Positions 3,709 through 15,739 of a stretch of 64,000 nucleotides of DNA are shown piece after piece. This DNA comes from Cloacibacillus evryensis DSM 19522. GTDB taxonomy: Bacteria > Synergistota > Synergistia > Synergistales > Synergistaceae. Numbering within the stretch: position 1 is the stretch's first letter; each line of letters opens with the position of its first letter. Position numbers and translations under genes: made by a program. A model generated the notes under the pieces. The model saw only the letters and a list, made by a program, of their open reading frames with translations. It ran no database searches and was not told the DNA's origin. The stretch covers positions 2,471,283-2,535,282 of the forward strand of contig NZ_KK073872.1 in assembly GCF_000585335.1 (NCBI RefSeq). The letters are read 5' to 3'.

Positions 3709-4542
3709 ATGGATTTTCAGCGGCTTACGATAGGACAGATGGCAAAGCTCAACCATATCTCGGAGCAGACCCTGCGGCTTTACGCGCGCGAGGGGCTGCT
3801 GACGCCGCATACGGTCGACGGCAGGAGCGGCTACCGTTATTACCACATCATGCAGTCGGCGCGGCTCGACATGATCCAGTACATGAAGTCATACGGAATG
3901 ACGCTCAAAGAGGTCAAGGAATATCTCGACCGCAGCGACGCGAAGGGGATACTGGAGATGCTCGCGAAGCAAAGCGGGGCCATCGACGGGCAGATACGGG
4001 CGCTGGAGCGCAGCAAGCGGGCGATCGCGCGCACCATGGAAAACTACCGGCGTTACGAAGCTCTGCCCAAAGACGACCTTATTTTTATCGAATATATCCC
4101 CGAGCGGCGCATCTACTGTTACCCCTCGCAAAGAAATTTTTTCGAGACGGACAGCGCCGGCTATGAATTTATGCTGCGCGAGCTGAAAGAGGACCTGATC
4201 GCAAGCGACCTGCCGATAACCTATTTCTGCAATGTCGGCACGGTCATGCGGCGCGGGCGGCTGTTGTCGGGCAATTTCTACGCCAACGAGGTGTTCCTCT
4301 TCGTGGACGAGGAGATAGGCGAAAGGTGCGAGCTGCTGCCGGGCGGCCTTTACTGCTGCCTATGTTCGGACGACTGCCTCGACGAGACAGGGAACGCGCG
4401 CCGCCTGCTCGCGGAGATAAAGGAACGCGGCTTCCGGCTCAACGGCGATTACATCTGCGAAGTGATCCTCGATTTTCCCGTTTTTGACACGGAAAGCCGC
4501 AAAATGTTTTATAAGCTCCAGATACCGATCCAGGTGAAATAA
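3709..4542 (+). CDS. MerR family transcriptional regulator
   Basis: A 277-residue regulator. Residues ~6-75 are a MerR winged helix-turn-helix: LTIGQMAKLNHISEQTLRLY, then EGLLTP and GYRYY, the classic wing sequence. A coiled-coil dimerisation helix follows (~80-120). The C-terminal 150 residues resemble an effector-binding domain of the GyrI/BmrR type (IYCYPSQRNFFETDSAGYEF), suggesting a small organic ligand; no metal-binding cysteine pattern is evident. MerR proteins twist promoters with over-long spacers; exactly such a promoter (19-bp spacer) lies just downstream before the dehydrogenase gene, which is therefore its probable target. Confidence 0.9.
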   Translation: MDFQRLTIGQMAKLNHISEQTLRLYAREGLLTPHTVDGRSGYRYYHIMQSARLDMIQYMKSYGMTLKEVKEYLDRSDAKGILEMLAKQSGAIDGQIRALERSKRAIARTMENYRRYEALPKDDLIFIEYIPERRIYCYPSQRNFFETDSAGYEFMLRELKEDLIASDLPITYFCNVGTVMRRGRLLSGNFYANEVFLFVDEEIGERCELLPGGLYCCLCSDDCLDETGNARRLLAEIKERGFRLNGDYICEVILDFPVFDTESRKMFYKLQIPIQVK

Positions 4543-4556
4543 TACGCGATTAGGGC

Positions 4557-4587
4557 TTGACTTTATAGTTGATATAAACTCTATTAT
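4557..4587 (+). promoter_or_regulatory. MerR-type promoter with 19-bp spacer and internal palindromic operator
   Basis: TTGACT (4557-4562) and TATTAT (4582-4587) are separated by 19 bases, the over-long spacing characteristic of MerR-activated promoters. Within it, bases 4560-4580 form a near-perfect inverted repeat with 8-base arms (one mismatch). A similar half-site arrangement lies in front of the regulator gene. Confidence 0.8.
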
Positions 4588-4631
4588 GTAAATACTGAGA
4601 ACAAATATTTTTTCGACGGAGGTAATTATCA

Positions 4632-5714
4632 ATGGATCGTAAAGTCAGAGTTGCGCAATATGGATGCGGCAAAATGAGCAAGTACCTTATGCGTTACGTG
4701 ATCGAAAAGGGCGGCGAACTTGCGGCGGCCTTTGATATGAATCCCGCCGTAATCGGCAGGGACGTCTGTGAGATCATCGGCGGCGCTCCCGTCGGCGTAA
4801 AGATATCCCCCGCCTCGGAGGCGGAGGCGGTATTAAAGGCGGTGAAGCCGGACGTCTGCATCATCGCCACGCGCAGTACGATGGCCGAGCTGAAAGAGGC
4901 CTTCACGGCCTGCGCAAAGAACGGCGTCAACGCCATAACGACATGCGAGGAGGCCCTTTATCCCTGGAACTCGTCGCCGGATATCACAAAGGAACTTGAC
5001 GAACTGGCGAAGGCCCATGGCTGCACGCTCTGCGGCAGCGGCTATCCCGACCTCTATTGGGGCACGATGGTCACCAACCTCGCCGGATCTTCGGCAAAGA
5101 TAACAAAGATACACGGCTCCAGCAGCTACAATGTGGAGGACTACGGCATCGCGCTCGCGAAGGGTCACGGCGCGGGGCTGACGATCGCGGAGTTTGAGAG
5201 GGAGATCGGCAACTACAACAGCCTCTCGTCGGACAAGATAAAGGCGCTCGTGGAAAAGGGCGGCTACATCCCCTCCTACATGTGGAACCAGAACGGCTGG
5301 CTCTGTGAAAAGCTCGGACTCACGATCACCTCGCAGACACAGAGGTGCGTGCCCTGCACCTATAAAGAAGATCTGCACTCGCAGACGCTCGGCATGACGA
5401 TAAAGGCCGGGGACGCCACGGGGATGTCGGCGATCGTGACGACGGAGACGGCGGAGGGAGTCACGCTGGAGACCGAGTGCGTCGGCAAGGTCTACGCCCC
5501 CGGCGAGTTCGACCGGAACGAGTGGACGCTCTGCGGAGAACCGGAGACCACGGTGATCGTCAACCGCCCCGCGACGGTGGAGCTGACCTGCGCGACGATC
5601 GTCAACCGCCTGCCGCAGCTGATAGACGCCAGGCCGGGGTATGTAACGACGAACAACCTGCCTGACAACGCCTATATGGTGAAACCGATAAATTTCTACG
5701 TCAAGAGCAAATAA
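4632..5714 (+). CDS. DapB-like NAD(P)-dependent dehydrogenase, possibly 2,4-diaminopentanoate dehydrogenase type
   Basis: A 360-residue protein with an N-terminal Rossmann fold: VRVAQYGCGKMSKYLMRYV carries the glycine-rich dinucleotide loop, and the domain resembles the N-terminal domain of dihydrodipicolinate reductase. It is too long for DapB (about 270) but fits the amino-acid dehydrogenases related to 2,4-diaminopentanoate dehydrogenase of ornithine fermentation. None of the other ornithine-pathway genes (oraSE, ortAB) is in the window, so the substrate is uncertain. The gene is preceded by a MerR-type promoter and a GGAGG ribosome-binding site, which suggests induction by an amino-acid-like effector. 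It is probably monocistronic and ends at a bidirectional terminator. Confidence 0.65.
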   Translation: MDRKVRVAQYGCGKMSKYLMRYVIEKGGELAAAFDMNPAVIGRDVCEIIGGAPVGVKISPASEAEAVLKAVKPDVCIIATRSTMAELKEAFTACAKNGVNAITTCEEALYPWNSSPDITKELDELAKAHGCTLCGSGYPDLYWGTMVTNLAGSSAKITKIHGSSSYNVEDYGIALAKGHGAGLTIAEFEREIGNYNSLSSDKIKALVEKGGYIPSYMWNQNGWLCEKLGLTITSQTQRCVPCTYKEDLHSQTLGMTIKAGDATGMSAIVTTETAEGVTLETECVGKVYAPGEFDRNEWTLCGEPETTVIVNRPATVELTCATIVNRLPQLIDARPGYVTTNNLPDNAYMVKPINFYVKSK

Positions 5715-5778: not shown

Positions 5779-6999
5779 TTAGGCGAAAAGCTTTACCAGC
5801 ACATTTATCACTACGACATTGACGATGTCGATGAAAAAGGCTCCGACCGCCGCCACCGCGAAAAAGGCGTCCGGGGCCATTCCGTACTTCGCGCAGACCG
5901 CCTCCATATTCGCGATCGCGTTAGGAGTCGCGCCAAGGCCGAAACCGGCATGTCCCGCCGTGATGACGGCCGCCTGATAGTCGCCTCCGGTAAGGCGGAA
6001 AGTCACATAAAAGGCAAAGAGTATCATCAGGACGACCTGAACGGCAAGGATGGATATCAGAGGGGCGGCCAGGCCGGCCAGCGCCGTCAGGTCGACGGAC
6101 ATCAGCGCGAAGGCGAGAAAAAAGGAGAGGCAGGCGCCGCTGATGTGTTTCACTATGCGCGGATTGACGCGAAACAGCCGCGCGTGGTCACCCGCGTTGC
6201 GTATCGCCATCCCCGCGACCAGGGCGATAGCGTACGCCGGCAAAAGTATGCCGCGCGCGCCGAGCCATTCGCTGAACCACATCCCCAGCCCGACGGCGAA
6301 TGTTATCTGGAAGACGGCCATCAGGATCGAATGGGTGTTTATCTCCTCGCCGGTATCCCCGAAGCTGAAGACGTCGGGTATCATCTCTTTGCGGTAATTC
6401 TCGCCGATGTTTGCCTCATTAGCGAGAGAGCGCCCCTTGATGAGCCGTTCGGCGATCGGTCCGCCGAGCAGCGACCCGGCAAGCACGCCGAAGGTGGCGC
6501 AGGCGATCGCCGCCGCCTGAGCTCCCTGAAGGCCGAGCACCTTTTCAAATTCGTCGGCAAAGACGAGCCCGGTCCCGTGTCCGCCCGTCATCGTAGCGGA
6601 GCCTGCCAGCACCGAGAGCAGCGGATCGAGCCCCGAAAGTTTACCGATCATTATTGCCGCGGCGTTCTGCAGCACCAGCAAAAGACAGGCCGCCAGCAGC
6701 AGCCGGAAGGCCGCCCGGCCGCCCCTCCTGAGCAGAGCGACGCTCGCGCCGAGCCCTATAGTGGTAAAAAAGGCGATCATAAACGGTTCCATGAGAGTAA
6801 GGTCGAATTCAAAGCCGACCCTGGAGGCGGCAAGCAGCCGGAGCAGCGCGAATAACAGACCGCCGGCGACCGCGGGCGGGATGTTGTAGCGTATAAGGAA
6901 CTTCACGCGGCGGCAGAGGGTGACGCCAAGCCAGTAAAGGATCGCGGCAAAGGCCATAGTCTGAATAAAGTCCATCTTCACCACAAAAATATCAGACAT
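5779..6999 (-). CDS. gltS: Sodium/glutamate symporter, GltS family (copy 1)
   Basis: A 406-residue inner-membrane protein with about 10-12 transmembrane segments. The GltS signatures are present: GSATMTGGHGTG in the middle re-entrant region and GFGLGATPNAIANM near the C-terminus. These are the two inverted glycine-rich hairpins that form the transport path. It imports glutamate (possibly D/L or related acidic amino acids) with Na+. It is the last gene of an operon and lies just after a paralogous copy; the two share most motif positions, so they look like an old tandem duplication. A strong AGGGAGGG ribosome-binding site precedes the ATG. Confidence 0.92.
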   Translation of the reverse strand: MSDIFVVKMDFIQTMAFAAILYWLGVTLCRRVKFLIRYNIPPAVAGGLLFALLRLLAASRVGFEFDLTLMEPFMIAFFTTIGLGASVALLRRGGRAAFRLLLAACLLLVLQNAAAIMIGKLSGLDPLLSVLAGSATMTGGHGTGLVFADEFEKVLGLQGAQAAAIACATFGVLAGSLLGGPIAERLIKGRSLANEANIGENYRKEMIPDVFSFGDTGEEINTHSILMAVFQITFAVGLGMWFSEWLGARGILLPAYAIALVAGMAIRNAGDHARLFRVNPRIVKHISGACLSFFLAFALMSVDLTALAGLAAPLISILAVQVVLMILFAFYVTFRLTGGDYQAAVITAGHAGFGLGATPNAIANMEAVCAKYGMAPDAFFAVAAVGAFFIDIVNVVVINVLVKLFA

Positions 7000-7012
7000 C
7001 TCTTATCCCTCC

Positions 7013-8218
7013 CTAAAGAAACGCCACAAAGCTCTGTATGACGACGGCGTTCACGATATCGATGAAGAACGCCCCGACGATGGAGACGACAAAGAAGGCG
7101 CGCGGCGCGGCGCCGTAGTTGCTTGTGATCGCGTCCATATTGGCGATGGCGTTAGGCGTGGCACCGAGGCCAAAACCGCAGTGTCCCCCGGCGATCACCG
7201 CCGCCGTGTAATCGCGGCGCATTACGTTGAAGGTTATAAAATAGGCGTAGAATCCCATCAACAGAGTCTCTCCAAGCAGGATCAGCGACATCGGCCCGGC
7301 AAGGTCGGCCAGCTGCCAGAGTTTGAGCGACATCAGGGAGAGCGCGAGGAAGAGCGAAAGGGCGACGGCGCCGATGGTGTCGGCAAGCCGCAGGTGGACC
7401 TTGTACAGCCCGCTGACGTCGCTCAGGTTGCGGATAAAGATGCCGACGAAGAGCGCGCACAGATACGTGGGAAGCTGTATGCCGATCTTGACCAGTTCCT
7501 CGTAGATGAAAGCGCCGGCGCTCATCGCGATCGTGATCTGCATCAGCGTCGTCATCAGCACGGAGGCTGAAACCGGGCCGTCAGAGGCGGCGTCGAGACT
7601 CTCATCGACCGTCTCATAGGTCATTTCATCAGGGTTAAGATGCGATTTTGCCAGGTGATTGCGTTCTATGATGCGGCGCGCCACCGGGCCCCCGAGGATG
7701 GAACCCATTACGAGGCCGAATGTGGCGGCGGCCATCGCAAGCTCCATGCCGCCCGCGAGGCCGTATTGTTTCTCAAAAAGGTTGGCGTAGACCGCGCCGG
7801 TGCCATGGCCCCCGGACATCGTGATGGAACCGGCCAGCATACCGAGCAGCGGATGTATCCCCGTCGCGTAGGAAAGAGCCACGGCCAGCACGTCCTGCAG
7901 GATCACCAGGACAGAGGCGATCATAAGAAAGATAAAAACCTGCGGCCCGCCCTGCTTCAGCATTTTGAAGCTCGCGGCAAGCCCTATGCTCGTGAAGAAG
8001 GTTATCATCAGCGGATCTTTGACGAGCATGTCGAAATTGAAAGAGAAACTGTCTTTGAGCGCCCAGCTCGCCAGCGCGAAGATCACGCCGCCGATCACCG
8101 GCGCCGGTATATTATACTTGCTCAGAAAGGATATCCTCTTTCTGAGAAACATACCCAGCCAGAGAATGGCGGTGGCGAAAGCCACGGTCTCGACGAGATT
8201 GAAGCGGAGTTCTGTCAT
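7013..8218 (-). CDS. gltS: Sodium/glutamate symporter, GltS family (copy 2)
   Basis: A 401-residue paralogue of the neighbouring symporter with the same signatures (GSITMSGGHGTGAVYA and GHCGFGLGATPNAIANM) and the same length. Sequence between the motifs has diverged considerably, so the two copies may differ in substrate (for example D- versus L-glutamate) or affinity. The start ATG overlaps the stop codon of the upstream ROK kinase gene (ATGA), indicating translational coupling. Expected location: inner membrane. Confidence 0.92.
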   Translation of the reverse strand: MTELRFNLVETVAFATAILWLGMFLRKRISFLSKYNIPAPVIGGVIFALASWALKDSFSFNFDMLVKDPLMITFFTSIGLAASFKMLKQGGPQVFIFLMIASVLVILQDVLAVALSYATGIHPLLGMLAGSITMSGGHGTGAVYANLFEKQYGLAGGMELAMAAATFGLVMGSILGGPVARRIIERNHLAKSHLNPDEMTYETVDESLDAASDGPVSASVLMTTLMQITIAMSAGAFIYEELVKIGIQLPTYLCALFVGIFIRNLSDVSGLYKVHLRLADTIGAVALSLFLALSLMSLKLWQLADLAGPMSLILLGETLLMGFYAYFITFNVMRRDYTAAVIAGGHCGFGLGATPNAIANMDAITSNYGAAPRAFFVVSIVGAFFIDIVNAVVIQSFVAFL

Positions 8219-9138
8219 CTCTTACACATCTCCTGTCCCAGAGAGGCGGCGCCGATCACCGCGGCTTCGCCTCCCAATTCTGAATTTTTTAAAATGAAAA
8301 CAGGCCGGAAGGGCCGGGGAAGGTATTTTTCGATCCTCTCCCGCAGCTCGTCGGCGAGCCCGGCGGCCAGGCTCATGCCGCCGCTGAGAATGACCGCCTC
8401 CGGGTCCAGCGTCACCGCGAGCGAGGCGATTCCGCGCGCCAGCGCCTCAAGCGCGGGGGCAAGGAGGTCCGCCGCGTTTTTGTCCGTACGGCGGCGTTCC
8501 CATATTTCACGAAAGACGGGCGGCAGCCCCAGAAGCCCGGCGCGCCGCTCCAGCCAGTCGGCGGAGGCGGATTCCTCAAGATGTCCCCTGCCGCCGCAGC
8601 CGCAGCCGCTGAGCGCCGGGTCGCCGCTGACCGCCATATGTCCGCATTCCGCCGCCATTCCATGCGCCCCGGACAGCAGCCTGCCGTTTGTCACGATGCC
8701 GGCTCCGATACCGGTACCCAGGGTGAGCACCACATAATCGCTCATTCCGCGCGCCGCGCCCGCGGCCCCCTCTCCGAGCGCCGCGCAGTTCGCGTCGTTC
8801 TCCAGACGGATCACGGCCTTGACGCCGAGTTCCCTGAGGTCAGCCGATATCGTTTCTCCCAGATATACTCCGTCGCAGCCGGAAAAGTTTGTGAGGCGGA
8901 GTATCCGCCGCCGTTCCTTGTCTGCAAAGCCGGGGATGCCTATTCCGACCGAACATTCCACGCCTGGGGCGGTCCACGGCAATATCAGCTCCTCGAGGGC
9001 GCGGGTAACGCTCAAGAGATCCCTTTTTTCCGGAGTGGGGACGGTCCGCGCGGAAATTATCCGCGGCCGTTCATTGGAAAAATCGACCGGGCCCGCCGAT
9101 ATCGTATGTCCTCCGAGGTCGATCCCTATTCTTTTCAT
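8215..9138 (-). CDS. ROK family sugar kinase
   Basis: A 307-residue kinase. The N-terminus MKRIGIDLGGHTISAG is the phosphate-binding loop of the ROK/ASKHA fold; LTLGTGIGAGIV is the second phosphate motif. GHMAV with CGCGGRGHLEE is the ROK zinc-binding signature (HxxxxxxxxC-x-C-G-x-x-GC(x)E type). ROK kinases phosphorylate glucose, N-acetylmannosamine, N-acetylglucosamine and related sugars. Placement between a D-aminopeptidase and glutamate symporters suggests an amino sugar derived from peptidoglycan, which is inference. ATG 9138 was chosen because it forms a TGATG junction with the upstream gene; a longer reading of ten codons is less plausible. Confidence 0.87.
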   Translation of the reverse strand: MKRIGIDLGGHTISAGPVDFSNERPRIISARTVPTPEKRDLLSVTRALEELILPWTAPGVECSVGIGIPGFADKERRRILRLTNFSGCDGVYLGETISADLRELGVKAVIRLENDANCAALGEGAAGAARGMSDYVVLTLGTGIGAGIVTNGRLLSGAHGMAAECGHMAVSGDPALSGCGCGGRGHLEESASADWLERRAGLLGLPPVFREIWERRRTDKNAADLLAPALEALARGIASLAVTLDPEAVILSGGMSLAAGLADELRERIEKYLPRPFRPVFILKNSELGGEAAVIGAASLGQEMCKR

Positions 9139-9974
9139 CAATAAGAAGAAAGCGTCGCCGCCGCGCACTCCATCAGAGAGTAAAGGAAACGGCGCAGCTC
9201 AAGCGCATCCTCCGTCTCAAAGCGCAGCGTGCGCGCCGCGGTTCTGACCGCCCCGGGCACCAGCGAGGCGGCGTCGGTCTGCAGGGTGTTCATCAGCGTC
9301 ACTTCGAGCAGGTATGGCGCGGCGGGGGTGAAGGGAGCAAACTCTCCTTTTTTCAGCCGTTCCACCGCTCTCTTCACTCCTGAACGTATCAGTTCGGCGC
9401 TGCTCTCGGGCGTAAGACACAGCGCGGCGGCGCGTCCCAGCCCCTCTTTGACGGAACAGGTCTCAAGCTGCCGGCCGAGCAGGCTTCCGGCCTCCAGGCA
9501 GAGCGCGTCGTCGCCGCTGACCATGATGACGGGCACGCCAAGAGCGCCGCAGAGCAGCGCGTTGACGCCTGTCTCTCCCATCTTCCGGCCGTTTATAGCC
9601 AGTCCGTATATTGTGTGCTGGTCAAAGGTATGGTCGAGCACCGCTTTCTCGGTACCGGCCATCGCGTGATATCCCAAAAATATCGCGGCGTCGCAGCCTC
9701 TCGCGCCCTCGACCATGCCGAGCAGCTTCGGCGCGCCCGTTATCAGCCGTACCTCGCCGCCGAATCCCGCGATATCCAGATTCGTCATCGTGCAGTGAGA
9801 ATCATTGACGACCACGCACTCGGCCCCGGAATCAATGGCGGCCTTTACGGCGGCGGCGACGTCGGCGGCCTGCATGGCCCTGCCAAAGGCATACTGCGGC
9901 TTTGTACAGTCGACCTGCGCGGCGCTCACAACTCCCGTCGAGCCCTCCATATCCGAACTTATGTAAATTTTCAT
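9138..9974 (-). CDS. dppA: D-aminopeptidase, M55 family (DppA type)
   Basis: A 278-residue cytoplasmic zinc peptidase. The start MKIYISSDMEGSTGV carries the Asp-x-Glu zinc ligands of family M55. Other expected ligands and active-site residues are visible: a histidine in NDSHCTMTN (about 60), one in GYHAMAG (about 104), the DHTFD segment (about 115) and MGETGVNA (about 133). The best-studied member, Bacillus DppA, releases D-Ala from D-Ala-D-Ala-type peptides. The gene overlaps the upstream flavin oxidoreductase (ATGA) and the downstream ROK kinase (TGATG), so the three are probably translated together. Confidence 0.93.
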   Translation of the reverse strand: MKIYISSDMEGSTGVVSAAQVDCTKPQYAFGRAMQAADVAAAVKAAIDSGAECVVVNDSHCTMTNLDIAGFGGEVRLITGAPKLLGMVEGARGCDAAIFLGYHAMAGTEKAVLDHTFDQHTIYGLAINGRKMGETGVNALLCGALGVPVIMVSGDDALCLEAGSLLGRQLETCSVKEGLGRAAALCLTPESSAELIRSGVKRAVERLKKGEFAPFTPAAPYLLEVTLMNTLQTDAASLVPGAVRTAARTLRFETEDALELRRFLYSLMECAAATLSSY

Positions 9975-10990
9975 AGATCAGCCCTCCATTTATCAAGGAA
10001 ACCGGCGTCGGATAAAAGCGGCCTACCAACTCCGATGAGATCGCAGCATCCGTCCGCGAGCAGGCGCTCGGCGTTTCCGATGCCGCGGACCCCGCCGGTG
10101 CATTCCACAGGGACCTTTACGCCGACGGCCTCACGAATTGCCGCGGCGTAGGGGGAGAAGTAAGCTCCGTCGGTACGGTCGGCGCCGTAACCGCAAAGGT
10201 TGCCGGAGACGCTCAGCAGGTCCGCGCCGAGCGCGGCGAGTTCGCGGGCGACGGCCCCGGCATCCGCCACTGTAAGGCCGCGCGGTTTTTCGTCCGGCAT
10301 CGTGTCGGCGGCCCCGAGGCGCACTGACAGGAGCGCGTCCGGCAGAGTGTGCCGCACGGCGTCGGTGATCTCGTAGAGAAAGCGCGCGCGCCGGTATCCC
10401 GTGCCGCCATAAGCGTCGTCGCGCAGATTTGTCAGCGGGCTCAGGAACTGTCCGGCCAGATAACCGTGCGCGGCGTGTATCATGACGCCGTCATAGCCGC
10501 CGAGGCGCACCATACGTTCGGCGGAGGCGGCAAAATCCTCGACGATCTTTTTTATCTCCGGCAGAGAGAGTTTCTCTGGCTCTCGCCGGAGCTTATCCCA
10601 AACCTTGCCCACCTTCACGCCCGACGGCGACAGGCAGCGAAAACCTTCCATTTCAAAAACTCCGGCGCTTGAAATGTTCGCGCCTCCGTGGCTTATCTGG
10701 GCGACGGCGGTTTTGCCGCCCTCCCTTATCAGCGCCGCGATCTTCGCGTGCGCGGCGGCCGCTCTGTCGCTGTCGGCCAGGAACTGCTCGGGCCTTACGC
10801 GCCCGGAGGGATTCACCGCGCAGTGTTCGACGTTGACAAGCGCGACGCCGGAGGCGGCGATCTTTCCGTAGACCTCAAACGACCGTTCCGTGGGGAGCCC
10901 GAGTCCGTCACCCGAGGAGGAGGCCAAAGGAGCCGCGCAAAGGCGGTTGCGCAGCCGGACGCCGCGCAGTTCAAAAGCGTCAAAGAGCAT
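9971..10990 (-). CDS. NADH:flavin oxidoreductase, Old Yellow Enzyme family
   Basis: A 339-residue single-domain FMN TIM barrel. Features: LRNRLCAAPLAS (phosphate/FMN region), QISHGGANIS, HAAHGYLAGQFLSP (the typical AHGYLLxQFLSP active-site segment), LSVRLGA, and a C-terminal phosphate-binding loop ending LADGCCDLIGVGRPLLSD. It lacks the C-terminal Fe-S and FAD domains of 2,4-dienoyl-CoA reductase, so it is the short OYE type, reducing enoyl or enone substrates with NAD(P)H. First gene of the operon with the D-aminopeptidase, kinase and symporters; a ribosome-binding site GAGGTG precedes the ATG. Confidence 0.88.
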   Translation of the reverse strand: MLFDAFELRGVRLRNRLCAAPLASSSGDGLGLPTERSFEVYGKIAASGVALVNVEHCAVNPSGRVRPEQFLADSDRAAAAHAKIAALIREGGKTAVAQISHGGANISSAGVFEMEGFRCLSPSGVKVGKVWDKLRREPEKLSLPEIKKIVEDFAASAERMVRLGGYDGVMIHAAHGYLAGQFLSPLTNLRDDAYGGTGYRRARFLYEITDAVRHTLPDALLSVRLGAADTMPDEKPRGLTVADAGAVARELAALGADLLSVSGNLCGYGADRTDGAYFSPYAAAIREAVGVKVPVECTGGVRGIGNAERLLADGCCDLIGVGRPLLSDAGFLDKWRADL

Positions 10991-11014: not shown

Positions 11015-11048
11015 AAAAAGCGTTGAGGCCGCCGCGTCCGCGGCGGCC
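11015..11048 (-). terminator. Terminator after ychF
   Basis: On the minus strand a 10-bp stem GGCCGCCGCG / CGCGGCGGCC closed by two bases, followed after a few bases by a run of five T. Confidence 0.7.
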
Positions 11049-11054
11049 TGCGTG

Positions 11055-12149
11055 TTAAACGTTGAAGCGTATCTCGATCATATCTCCGTCTTTTACGATA
11101 TATTCCTTTCCCTCAAGGCGGAGCACCCCGGCCTTGCGGCAATCGTCGAAGGAGTGCCCGTATTTCATATAATCGTCATAGGCCACGACCTGCGCGCGGA
11201 TAAAACCGCGGGCGAGGTCCGAATGTATCGTTCCCGCCGCGTCCACCGCCGTCTCGCCTTTGTGCAGGGTCCAGGCGCGCACTTCGTCGGGGCCGGAGGT
11301 GAAGAAGCTGATAAGGCCGAGTACGCGGTAAGCCTCCTCTATGAGGCGTTCGCGTCCCGGCTCGGAGATATTGAGCCCCTCGGTGAACTCCGCCGCCTCT
11401 TCGGGAGAAAGGTCCATAATATCCATCTCCAGGCTGCCGTAAAGCGTGCAGAGCTTCGCGCCGTGCTCTTCGGCCCGTTTTTTGAGTTCGTCCCACTTTG
11501 GGATACGGGATTCCTCGCTCTGGCTCTCGTCAAGGTTAAGCAGGATTATCTGCGGTTTCGACGTTACGAAGGAGAATCCGCGAAGCTGCCGCCATTCCTC
11601 CGGTTTCAGCTCGATGCTCGAAAGCGGCCGTTCCTCCATCAGGCAGTCATAGCATTTTTCGAGCAGCGCCTTTTCCTTGTCTTCGTCCGGCGTCAGCTTT
11701 TTCTTCGCGCGGAGTTTGCCGAGACGGTTCTCAATTACGGCGAGGTCGCGAAAAATCAGCTCGTTGTCAAGAATATCCCAGTCCCGCACGGGATCGACCG
11801 AGCCTTCGGGATGCTCCACCGCCGGGTTGCCGAAACAGCGGATCACTTGAATGAGGGCGTCCGCGTCGGCGACGAAAGAGAGAAAGGCGTTGCCCAGCCC
11901 CTCGCCCTTCCCCGCGCCGCGCGACAGTCCGGCCAGGTCGACAAATTCCACCTGCGCCGGGGTCTCTTTGCGAGGCGAGTTGATCTTCACAAGCTCGTCA
12001 AAGCGCCTGTCGGGAACGGAGACGACGGCCTTATTGGGGTCTGTTTTCCCTCCCGCGTAAGGCTTCACCTCCGCGCCGGCTCTCGTTATCACATTAAATA
12101 CTGTAGATTTTCCGCTCAGAGGCAATCCAACGATTCCGCAATGCAGCAT
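11055..12149 (-). CDS. ychF: YchF/Ola1-type ribosome-associated GTPase/ATPase
   Basis: A 364-residue P-loop protein of the Obg-related YchF family. The P-loop is GLPLSGKST at residues 8-16 (GLPNVGKS in most members), the switch II region is DLAGLSRGAGKGEGLGNAFL, and the base-recognition motif is NLDE instead of NKxD, which explains why the family prefers ATP. A helical coiled-coil insert is followed by a C-terminal TGS domain with the conserved ending GKEYIVKDGDMIEIRFNV. YchF associates with ribosomes and is linked to stress and translation control. Monocistronic and terminated. Confidence 0.95.
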   Translation of the reverse strand: MLHCGIVGLPLSGKSTVFNVITRAGAEVKPYAGGKTDPNKAVVSVPDRRFDELVKINSPRKETPAQVEFVDLAGLSRGAGKGEGLGNAFLSFVADADALIQVIRCFGNPAVEHPEGSVDPVRDWDILDNELIFRDLAVIENRLGKLRAKKKLTPDEDKEKALLEKCYDCLMEERPLSSIELKPEEWRQLRGFSFVTSKPQIILLNLDESQSEESRIPKWDELKKRAEEHGAKLCTLYGSLEMDIMDLSPEEAAEFTEGLNISEPGRERLIEEAYRVLGLISFFTSGPDEVRAWTLHKGETAVDAAGTIHSDLARGFIRAQVVAYDDYMKYGHSFDDCRKAGVLRLEGKEYIVKDGDMIEIRFNV

Positions 12150-12425: not shown

Positions 12426-13451
12426 CTATTTGACTGACATTCCCTGGTAATTCGTCTCTTTTATCTTGATGAGCCCGGATGACACCTTCTCCTCCAGCTC
12501 GTCGATACGCTTGCGGATGTCAATGGGGACGTTCCGCTTCGTCTCGCGGGTCCACGTCGAAATGTCTATGCAGTCCTCCTTCAGTCCAAGGGAGAAACGA
12601 TCCCTTGGAAGCTTATTCTGCACGAAATTCTCTATTACCTTATAGATCACATGGCCGCTGCGCTTGACGACGCTGGTCAGCACCATTTCCGGATATTCGC
12701 TCTCAAGCTCCGTATCGACGCCGATCGTCCAGTATCCGCCCTCTTTGGCGCGCTCTATCGCGCCGATGCCGGCGGCGCCGTTGACACAGAATATTATATC
12801 CGCGCCGGCGTTCTTCAGCTTCATCGCCGCCGCGGCCGCCTTCGCGCGGTCAAAGAAATCGTTCGTATACTCGCACAGCACCTCGATACCAGGATCGACG
12901 TACCAGGCCCCGGCGATATAGCCTCGTTTGAAGCGTTCTACGGGAGGAGTTTTATCTCCCAGGATGATGCCGATTTTTTTACCGTCATTGATGCGCTCAA
13001 GGTCAACTCTCGTCGTGATCATCGCGGCCAAAGCGCCGGCAAGAAACCCGCCCTCCTCCTCACGGAAAGCGATCTCAGTTATACCGTCTATATTGTTGGT
13101 GTCAAAGGTGAGGAACGAACATGAGGGATATTCCCTCCGCACCTCCGGCAGGTATTTGATATAGGCGACCGAGGTGATGATGACCAGGTCGGACGAAGCG
13201 GCGGCCTCTTTGAGCAGCGGCAGCAGCTTATTTTTATCGTCGAGCGCGTTATAATATCGCGTGGATATCTTTTTATTCCCGAAACGCACCTGGGCGTTTC
13301 TCATACCCTCAAGACAGAGCCAGTTAAATCCGGAGGCGGAGGCGGTGTCGGCCCCCTCCAGCATCAGCGCTATCCGCTTCGGAGCGGCGAACGCGGAGCA
13401 TTCCATCAGCACCATCAAAATAAGCGCCGCCGGCAGAATAAATTTTTTCAT
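12426..13451 (-). CDS. BMP/PnrA-family substrate-binding protein (orphan)
   Basis: A 341-residue periplasmic binding protein with a signal peptide (MKKFILPAALILMVLMECSA, cleavage likely after SAFA). The mature part has the BMP/Med family features: SDLVIITSVAYIKYLPEV, REEEGGFLAGALAA, and ADIIFCVNGAAGIGAIERAKE with GVDTELES near the ligand pocket. Relatives bind purine nucleosides or riboflavin and normally sit beside an ABC ATPase and two permeases; none is present here. The LMEC sequence is a poor lipobox, so signal peptidase I is more likely. ATG 13451 is preferred over an upstream ATG that lies on top of the AAAGGA ribosome-binding site. Confidence 0.82.
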   Translation of the reverse strand: MKKFILPAALILMVLMECSAFAAPKRIALMLEGADTASASGFNWLCLEGMRNAQVRFGNKKISTRYYNALDDKNKLLPLLKEAAASSDLVIITSVAYIKYLPEVRREYPSCSFLTFDTNNIDGITEIAFREEEGGFLAGALAAMITTRVDLERINDGKKIGIILGDKTPPVERFKRGYIAGAWYVDPGIEVLCEYTNDFFDRAKAAAAAMKLKNAGADIIFCVNGAAGIGAIERAKEGGYWTIGVDTELESEYPEMVLTSVVKRSGHVIYKVIENFVQNKLPRDRFSLGLKEDCIDISTWTRETKRNVPIDIRKRIDELEEKVSSGLIKIKETNYQGMSVK

Positions 13452-13636
13452 TAACCAGCACATCCTTTCGTTAAACCAAAAGAATATCTTTTTTATAAAT
13501 TATCGCTATAATTATACCTTAGAAGAGGGGCGGCGGGGAACCGGCATCTTGCCTCGCTGCTTGACAATTTTAGAGCGGTTGCGTTAGCATTTACTAATTA
13601 AACAAAGTTGACATACTCTTGGAGTTGAGCGTATAG

Positions 13637-13891
13637 ATGAATCTTGTAAGCATGAAGAGCGGGGAGCGGGCCGTCATAAAAACGCTGCCTGAGGGAGAGG
13701 CTGCCCAGCGCCTGGAGGCGCTTGGGCTGCGAAGCGGCAAGGAGATAGAAAAGATATCGTGCATGCCCTTCGGAGGGCCGGTGACGGTGATGCTCGAGGG
13801 ACGACATTTTGCGGTGTCTCACAGCATCGCCGAACATATTGAGATCGAGAGCGCCGGTTCGCGGCAGATCAGGGGCGAGCGGGAAAAATAG
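13637..13891 (+). CDS. feoA: FeoA, ferrous iron transport accessory protein
   Basis: An 84-residue SH3-like protein. RLEALGLRSGKEIEKIS and GGPVTVMLEGRHFAVS match the FeoA core (LxxLGLxxGxxIxxI, GPxxVxxxGxxxAL). FeoA stimulates Fe(II) uptake by FeoB. Its stop codon directly touches the feoB start (TAGATG). The ribosome-binding site is weak (GGAG 12 bases upstream). Confidence 0.9.
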   Translation: MNLVSMKSGERAVIKTLPEGEAAQRLEALGLRSGKEIEKISCMPFGGPVTVMLEGRHFAVSHSIAEHIEIESAGSRQIRGEREK

Positions 13892-15739
13892 ATGAGCTGC
13901 AAAGACTGTAAATTATGCCTTGAAAAAAATGATCAGAAAAAAGACGGCGCGCGCCGCCCAGCGTCCGCTTTGGAGGACGTGAAGGATAACCATAACGACC
14001 GGGCCTGCGACTGCCGCAAACGAATACGCATCCTCCTGATGGGGAATCCCAACGTCGGGAAGAGCGTATTTTTTTCGCGCCTCACCGGCGTACACGCGCT
14101 CTCTTCAAACTACCCCGGCACTACCGTCGGCTTTACGCAGGGGCTCATAAAACACGGGGACATCTGCGGGGACCTGATCGACGTTCCCGGCGCTTACACG
14201 CTGGACCCGACGAACGAGGCCGAGGAGATCGCGCGCCGGATCATCGGCGAGGGGGCCGACAAGGTCATACTCGTCATCGACGCGACGGCGCTCGAACGGA
14301 ACCTCGTGATGGCGCTCCAGGTGCTGGCCTATCATATACCGACCGTCGCGGCGCTGAACATGACCGACGAGGCGCGCCACAAAGGCATTCTACTCGACGT
14401 GAAAAAACTCGAAGACGAGCTCGGCGTCCCCATATACCAGACGGTGGCGACGACCGGCAGCGGCATCAGCGCCCTGGTCGAGGGGCTTGAAAAGGCTCGC
14501 GTCAGCCCCATAGAACCGATGACGAAAGAAGAGCGCTGGCAAAAGATCGGGGAGATCATCGCCGGCGTCCAGACGGTGACGCACCGCCACCATACTCTGC
14601 TAGACCGGATCGAGGACATATCGGCCCGCCCCGTGATCGGCGGACTGATGGGTTTTCTTGTGCTCGCGCTGAGCTTCACGCTTATCCGTTTTGTCGGCGA
14701 GGGGCTCATAAGCTACATTTTCGACCCGATCTTTGAAAATTTTTGGCTGCCGCTTCTTGAGAAGCTGAGCGGCCTCTTCGGCGACGGCTACCTGCGCGCG
14801 CTGCTGATCGGGAAACTTTTCGACGGCTCCATAGACCTCGAGCAAAGCATGGGAGTGCTCTCTACCGGCTTCTACGTAGAATTCGGCATGGTGCTGCCTT
14901 ATATCATCGCCTTTTACGCCGTGCTCTCGTTCCTTGAGGATTTCGGCTACCTGCCGCGCCTCGCCGTCGTCTTTGACGCGCTGCTCCACCGTTTCGGCAT
15001 CCACGGCTACGCCATCATCCCCACGCTGCTCGGCTTCGGCTGCAACGTGCCGGGGATATTGGCGACGCGCGTCCTGGAATCGAAGCGGGAGCGTTTCATC
15101 GCGGCGACGCTGATATCCGTCGGCGTTCCCTGTGTTTCAATACAGGCGATGCTGGCCTCTACACTCGGAGGTTTCGGCATGAGATACGTCGGCGCTGTGT
15201 ACCTTATATTATTCATAGTCTGGCTCATACTGGGCCGCCTCATGCATCTGACGCTCTCCGGCTACAGCCCCGAGCTGATCGTGGAGATACCGCCGTACCG
15301 CCTGCCCTCGCCCAAAGCATGGATGAGCAAATTATGGTTCCGCATCAAAGACTTCTTTCTTGAGGCGACGCCGCTCGTGCTCGGAGGCATCCTGTTAGTC
15401 AATATATTAGACACCGTCGGCCTGCTGGAATGGATCGGGGATGCGCTCGCTCCCTTCTTCCAAACGGTGCTGGGGCTGCCGCCCGCGACCGCAGTGCCGG
15501 TGGTAATGGGACTTTTCCGCAAGGATATCGCGATGGGGCTGCTCATACCGCTTGAGCTCACGGCCCAGCAGATGCTCGTCGCGGTCATCGTCCTCTCCAT
15601 GACCTTTCCCTGCATCGCGACATTCGTCGTCATGTGGAAAGAGCTCGGCGTGAGGCGCATGCTCCAGAGCAGCGCGATCATGCTCTCCGCGGCGCTGATA
15701 ACGGGCGCGGCGCTGAACCTCATATTGAACGCGCTGTAA
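13892..15739 (+). CDS. feoB: FeoB, ferrous iron transporter with GTPase domain and cysteine-rich N-terminal extension
   Basis: A 615-residue inner-membrane protein. The G domain has G1 GNPNVGKS (about 52-59), the switch region SNYPGTTV, G3 DVPGAY and G4 NMTD (usually NKxD or NMxD in FeoB). Two Gate domains follow with the conserved cysteines in GFGCNVPGI and GVPCVSIQAML, plus FPCIATFVVM near the C-terminus; about 8-10 membrane helices. Unusually, a ~45-residue extension precedes the G domain with CKDCKLC and CDC cysteine motifs, a possible Fe or Fe-S site. At 615 residues the remainder is slightly shorter than typical FeoB (650-770). Operon: feoA-feoB, followed 16 bases later by an M23 peptidase gene. 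Confidence 0.95.
   Translation: MSCKDCKLCLEKNDQKKDGARRPASALEDVKDNHNDRACDCRKRIRILLMGNPNVGKSVFFSRLTGVHALSSNYPGTTVGFTQGLIKHGDICGDLIDVPGAYTLDPTNEAEEIARRIIGEGADKVILVIDATALERNLVMALQVLAYHIPTVAALNMTDEARHKGILLDVKKLEDELGVPIYQTVATTGSGISALVEGLEKARVSPIEPMTKEERWQKIGEIIAGVQTVTHRHHTLLDRIEDISARPVIGGLMGFLVLALSFTLIRFVGEGLISYIFDPIFENFWLPLLEKLSGLFGDGYLRALLIGKLFDGSIDLEQSMGVLSTGFYVEFGMVLPYIIAFYAVLSFLEDFGYLPRLAVVFDALLHRFGIHGYAIIPTLLGFGCNVPGILATRVLESKRERFIAATLISVGVPCVSIQAMLASTLGGFGMRYVGAVYLILFIVWLILGRLMHLTLSGYSPELIVEIPPYRLPSPKAWMSKLWFRIKDFFLEATPLVLGGILLVNILDTVGLLEWIGDALAPFFQTVLGLPPATAVPVVMGLFRKDIAMGLLIPLELTAQQMLVAVIVLSMTFPCIATFVVMWKELGVRRMLQSSAIMLSAALITGAALNLILNAL

Follow-up and report, generated by a model that had tools for sequence, protein, structure and literature searches.

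Why should genes for an Old Yellow Enzyme (OYE) flavoprotein, an M55 D-aminopeptidase (DppA), a ROK-family sugar kinase and two sodium/glutamate symporters (GltS1 and GltS2) be packed into one tightly overlapping array in Cloacibacillus evryensis DSM 19522? This Synergistaceae bacterium is an amino-acid-fermenting, gut-type organism, and its genome (3.49 Mb, 99.98% complete) is a single contig. The array belongs to a 64,000-nucleotide stretch (contig NZ_KK073872.1, positions 2,471,283 to 2,535,282), hereafter the window, within which all unprefixed positions below are counted. The locus was compared with 121 related genomes by profile searches and neighbourhood analysis.

Gene order and probable extent of the operon

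The five open reading frames delineated in the initial annotation are intact and located on the minus strand (Table 1), and both the assigned gene identities and the tight coupling proved correct, each family match scoring well above the curated Pfam cut-off. The spacing previously described, with four of the five genes overlapping and the fifth 13 bases away, was recovered by reading the sequence as well as by computation: the OYE gene and dppA share 4 nt (ATGA), dppA and rok share 1 nt (TGATG), rok and gltS2 share 4 nt (ATGA), and gltS2 is separated from gltS1 by a 13-bp gap. A sixth gene that had been missed, ychF, is located 64 bp upstream of the OYE gene on the same strand. YchF is a universally conserved translation/stress ATPase. 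For ychF and all five downstream genes, dN/dS against the congeneric genome G001 is in the range of 0.04-0.14, indicating purifying selection; thus, these are real genes rather than chance reading frames.

In the loci included in the YchF tree, ychF is followed by OYE, dppA and/or rok genes on the same strand, and in several related genera the gap between ychF and the next gene shrinks to 10-16 bp. Given these short gaps and the same-strand recurrence, the unit is best described as ychF-OYE-dppA-rok-gltS2-gltS1, so that the operon very probably starts one gene earlier than previously indicated. Spacing, strand and conservation suggest that one transcript spans all six genes and that their translation is coupled. 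The gap between ychF and the OYE gene contains a hairpin (-27.6 kcal/mol), and a similar one (-32.0 kcal/mol) is present in G001; no strong hairpin was found in the 10-16 bp ychF gaps of other genera. The T-run is located six bases away from the hairpin, which accordingly is not a canonical terminator and might be a processing or partial-attenuation element.

Table 1. Genes and features of the putative ychF-led operon (window positions; scores in bits)
Feature	Position	Strand	Evidence
ychF, redox-regulated ATPase, putative operon gene 1	11055..12149	-	TIGR00092 352, cut-off 279
Stem-loop between ychF and OYE	11026..11049	-	10-bp perfect GC-rich stem, 4-nt loop
OYE, single-domain FMN ene-reductase, 339 aa	9971..10990	-	PF00724 145.9, cut-off 27
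dppA, M55 dinuclear-zinc aminopeptidase, 278 aa	9138..9974	-	PF04951 301.7, cut-off 25
rok, ROK-family sugar kinase, 307 aa from its own ATG	8215..9138	-	PF00480 178, cut-off 22.9
gltS2, Na+/glutamate symporter, 401 aa	7013..8218	-	TIGR00210 428.5, cut-off 310.75
gltS1, Na+/glutamate symporter, more divergent copy, 406 aa	5779..6999	-	TIGR00210 351.1, cut-off 310.75

Upstream of ychF (12426-15739), the window encodes a Bmp/PnrA-type substrate-binding protein, along with a divergent small gene and FeoB; the order FeoB, Bmp, ychF is found again in several Synergistaceae. At the other end (3709-5714), a gene for a MerR-type regulator precedes a divergent 2,4-diaminopentanoate-dehydrogenase-like gene (125 bits, against an equivalog cut-off of 400) that converges on the end of the operon. 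Between ychF and the OYE gene, family f7 has an additional gene, for a mannose-1-phosphate guanylyltransferase/mannose-6-phosphate isomerase (L074:8667-10277 and relatives).

Conservation across Synergistales

The initial annotation would have been undermined by a gene order that was not conserved even in close relatives. The order is kept: the congener G001 has the full five-gene block, and OYE-dppA-rok is seen again in other families. The core ychF-OYE-dppA-rok is widespread, with representatives in several families of Synergistales, and is complete in G000, G001, G011, G006, genera g8 and g3, and family f7, with OYE or dppA repeatedly missing elsewhere. Variants include dppA-rok without OYE (g20, g21, g14, g9 and g15), OYE-dppA without an adjoining rok (G061, G070, G057, G074 and G081), and OYE-rok without dppA (f10, G022 and G066), where the 4-nt overlap is often the same. 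Many Synergistaceae have ychF-rok alone (G002, G010, G012, G013, G016, G018, G035, G036, G040, G049, G050 and G051). In all, 33 genomes encode an OYE of the cassette type (at least 250 bits), and in 23 of them dppA directly adjoins the OYE gene; across the phylum, the OYE clade (at least 400 bits) is represented in 34 of 188 genomes. In a cross-phylum scan of contigs with the OYE profile, L104, from Synergistaceae, is the only one among the matches listed (80 loci) with dppA or a cassette-like rok as a neighbour of the OYE gene.

The gltS pair is located behind rok in only 5 of the 121 genomes (G000, G001, G020, G021 and G004) and has been added locally, downstream of rok. In G004, the arrangement is ychF-rok-gltS2-gltS1, without dppA and OYE; together with the persistence of ychF-rok alone, this shows that the units are gained and lost independently of one another. 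The YchF tree has blocks containing OYE, dppA and rok on both of its deep sides; its composition letters miss some weaker or cut genes (e.g., rok in L082 and L085, present in the neighbourhood analysis). This distribution suggests that ychF-OYE-dppA-rok was the ancestral state in this part of the order and that losses occurred repeatedly. In genus g8, a D-2-hydroxyacid dehydrogenase gene overlaps rok.

Predicted properties of the encoded proteins

The ROK kinase contains the characteristic zinc motif (GH at 166-167, followed by C179, C181, H186 and E188) of its family, published as GHx9-11CxCGx2G(C/H)xE (PMC2742894). The zinc set consists of H167, C179, C181 and H186, and the replacement of the last cysteine by histidine, considered as a potential novelty, falls within this published C/H pattern (PMC2742894). 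The sugar-binding residues N114, D115, E164, H167 and E188 are kept as well. In both fold and profile comparisons, glucokinases (PDB entries 3vgk and 3vov) are nearest, followed by NanK and NagK, and the score with the glucokinase profile TIGR00744 is 140 against a cut-off of 260. The DxGxT motif is replaced by DLGGH (9103-9120, residues 7-12, minus strand). The histidine is present in all 57 distinct orthologues from Synergistales but in none of 14 ROK paralogues from the same phylum, which have threonine or other residues at this site; E. coli NanK and NagK have threonine. This signature, DxGGH where DxGGT is expected, places the window protein in a Synergistales subfamily; it could signal altered chemistry and offers a clean natural test of the function of the threonine.

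The ROK protein is nearly universal in the order, with a match in 102 of the 121 genomes and about 80 matches above 250 bits. Its gene has different neighbours in other taxonomic families, encoding asparaginase, phosphatidylserine synthase or acyl-ACP thioesterase; such settings speak against a dedicated link with DppA. In the complete host genome, no Glk-type glucokinase (PF02685) was found above the cut-off, and ROK has just one further match, a partial one (28 bits).

The M55 protein matches B. subtilis DppA (1hi9, E=1.7e-40) and keeps the six metal/catalytic residues (DEHHHE) that define the family (D8, E10, H60, H104, H115 and E133 in B. subtilis numbering) as D8, E10, H60, H103, H115 and E134, so that D-aminopeptidase activity is plausible. 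Its score with the Bacillus-type DppA equivalog NF058634 is 197.4 bits against a cut-off of 430; the protein belongs to the family, but its functional equivalence to Bacillus DppA is unproven. Other dppA copies of the order are mostly located in classical dipeptide ABC-transporter (dpp) operons (e.g., L092-L096 and L100-L102); the window dppA, 43-48% identical to these copies, is more divergent. In genus g3 (G003, G023 and G032), the DppA encoded between OYE and rok (L085:7769-8557, L086:4645-5424 and L087:6775-7572) lacks five of the six metal/catalytic residues, and the G023-G032 comparison yields dN/dS of 0.13 for DppA, 0.10 for OYE and 0.14 for ROK. This constraint suggests that the apparently dead enzyme keeps a non-catalytic role, a testable case of a metallopeptidase retained for such a function; it is no evidence on the window DppA, which looks intact. 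A separate variant, G009 DppA (L069:5649-6485), has glycine and cysteine at the metal positions D8 and E10, and the copy from the congeneric G027 is intact.

The OYE model (pLDDT 90.7) has its best PDB matches in 5nux, 7o0t and 1z41 (TM 0.88-0.89), the nearest structures being T. scotoductus ER, C. aggregans OYE and YqjM. In addition to the profile match and the fold, superfamily membership is indicated by H172 and H175, which are invariant in the alignment, and Y177, which is nearly invariant. Class III (YqjM-type) enzymes such as YqjM, XenA and TsER carry a redox-active cysteine near the N-terminus (Cys25/26). The window protein has A23 at this position, two residues past the invariant P21, and the alanine is nearly invariant in 26 sequences; thus, the protein does not qualify for this class. 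It scores below the cut-off of every NCBIfam OYE equivalog. A TMADH-type amine or D-amino-acid dehydrogenase was also considered and is not favoured, given that the ene-reductase His/His/Tyr set is kept and the 339-aa protein has no Fe-S domain.

The two symporters score 353 and 414 bits with PF03616 (cut-off 26), both exceed the GltS equivalog cut-off, and they are 42% (GltS1) and 45% (GltS2) identical to E. coli GltS. The latter is reported to prefer L-glutamate (PMC12344293), and an E. coli D-glutamate auxotroph is reported to have gltS altered in codons 163 and 355 (PMC12502697). Both window copies have alanine at the positions equivalent to 163 and 355, as in wild-type E. coli. The D-glutamate part of the proposal that the paralogues import D- and L-glutamate is not supported: neither copy has the changes expected of a D-glutamate-adapted GltS, no feature identifies either as a transporter of D-glutamate, and specialisation of one of them for this substrate was rejected for lack of a supporting residue change.

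Functional interpretation

We consider it somewhat better than an even bet (probability about 0.55) that the locus is a ychF-led housekeeping operon of Synergistales that combines glutamate uptake, peptide hydrolysis and hexose phosphorylation and does not constitute one linear pathway. The symporters would carry out Na+-coupled import of glutamate, with L-glutamate preferred, and DppA would convert short peptides, probably including those containing D-amino acids, to free amino acids for fermentation. The ROK protein, in a host that has no other recognisable glucokinase, is predicted to supply anabolism with hexose-6-phosphate by phosphorylating a neutral hexose of the glucose/mannose type, and OYE would use NAD(P)H to reduce an alpha,beta-unsaturated carbonyl. 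The common denominator might be growth and nutrient state, to which YchF would be linked, rather than a shared substrate; we infer both the substrates and this logic. These predictions are compatible with the 4-, 1- and 4-nt overlaps combined with purifying selection on every gene, with the direct abutment of OYE and rok, again by 4 nt, where dppA is missing, and with the recurrence of OYE-dppA pairs and of OYE-dppA-rok blocks deep in the YchF tree. The modular behaviour of ychF-rok and of the G004 arrangement points in the same direction, as do the wide distribution of ROK, its unrelated neighbours elsewhere and the lack of a Glk-type enzyme. On the other side, OYE and dppA stay adjacent across families with a persistence that suggests a tie closer than shared regulation, co-transcription is a prediction for a genus with a strong hairpin after ychF, and the hexose specificity of ROK is putative, given that DxGGH could mean altered chemistry. 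If this housekeeping assignment is true, the locus cautions against inferring a pathway from tight overlap, the block being ychF-anchored and modular.

The same OYE-dppA adjacency also fits a module for catabolism of D-amino acids or D-peptides, in which DppA would free D-amino acids and OYE would be a downstream redox partner, with relatives adding a YheO/DauR-type regulator and an enzyme of the ornithine cyclodeaminase (OCD) family. Genes for an OCD/mu-crystallin homologue and a YheO-type PAS/HTH regulator indeed follow the block in six relatives (L065:1139-2879, L070, L071, L072, L067 and L091), a combination that recalls the dau D-arginine locus of P. aeruginosa. We regard such a module as unlikely: the His/His/Tyr set of OYE is that of ene-reductases, not amine dehydrogenases, no OCD or YheO genes adjoin the operon in the window, and rok and gltS are unaccounted for.

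The function originally proposed for the cluster, salvage of peptidoglycan-derived amino sugars and D-amino acids, fares worse and is rejected as the main explanation. Under this scheme, DppA would cut D-Ala-D-Ala-type peptides, ROK would phosphorylate GlcNAc or MurNAc, and the GltS pair would import D- and L-glutamate. The intact zinc ligands of DppA, the sugar-binding residues of ROK and the D-2-hydroxyacid dehydrogenase gene of genus g8 are in its favour. However, searches of the complete genome gave no match for NagB (PF01182) and none above the cut-off for NagA (partial matches of up to 26 against 225.65 bits); MurQ has none above the cut-off in this genome or in 60 relatives, with partial matches far below. 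The host genome thus does not recognisably encode the MurQ, NagA and NagB set for GlcNAc/MurNAc salvage, and the product of an amino-sugar kinase would have no recognisable catabolic route to enter; a lone neutral-hexose kinase serving anabolism is a reasonable alternative. Furthermore, ROK is closer to glucokinases and often has unrelated neighbours, the diagnostic GltS residues are like those of wild-type E. coli, gltS is found behind rok in G004 without dppA and OYE, and the scheme leaves OYE unaccounted for, which makes it quite improbable. In short, the gene identities, the coupling, the conserved order and a plausibly active DppA survive from the initial interpretation, and the salvage function does not.

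The block is real and conserved and is built from known gene families, and the literature searched yielded no description of it: no paper linking OYE, a D-aminopeptidase and a ROK kinase was identified, and a paper on the CodY regulon of Synergistetes contains none of the gene names searched. A bolder proposal, to which we assign a similarly low likelihood as to salvage, is that OYE, DppA and the DxGGH ROK form an ancient, undescribed Synergistales module that would act in sequence or as a complex on a modified peptide or glycoconjugate, with ROK using histidine instead of threonine at the phosphate site and a second, non-catalytic role of DppA surviving as the g3 pseudoenzyme. Least probable is a physical OYE-DppA(-ROK) complex in which DppA could act as scaffold, hence the retention of dead DppA in g3: the g3 protein evolves under constraint close to that of OYE and ROK, and DppA of B. 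subtilis forms a self-compartmentalising oligomer (Remaut et al. 2001, as cited in PMC7017815), but OYE and DppA are each found in operons without the other.

Comparison with known systems

The B. subtilis dpp operon shares with the window an M55 enzyme with all zinc ligands, but here dppA is coupled to OYE, rok and ychF, and there is no ABC transporter. The OYE protein resembles YqjM and Thermus scotoductus ER in being a single FMN TIM barrel with 32-34% identity and the catalytic His/His/Tyr, but differs from them by alanine in place of the usual N-terminal redox cysteine and by EHHA and GNLCGY motifs that are invariant or nearly so. The glucokinases of S. griseus (3vgk) and T. thermophilus (3vov) are the best fold and profile matches of the ROK protein, which has the same sugar- and zinc-binding residues but an invariant histidine for the threonine of DxGxT. 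Finally, the symporters retain A163 and A355 of E. coli GltS at 42-45% identity, but in the window they form a tandem, non-identical pair that appears to be translationally linked to rok.
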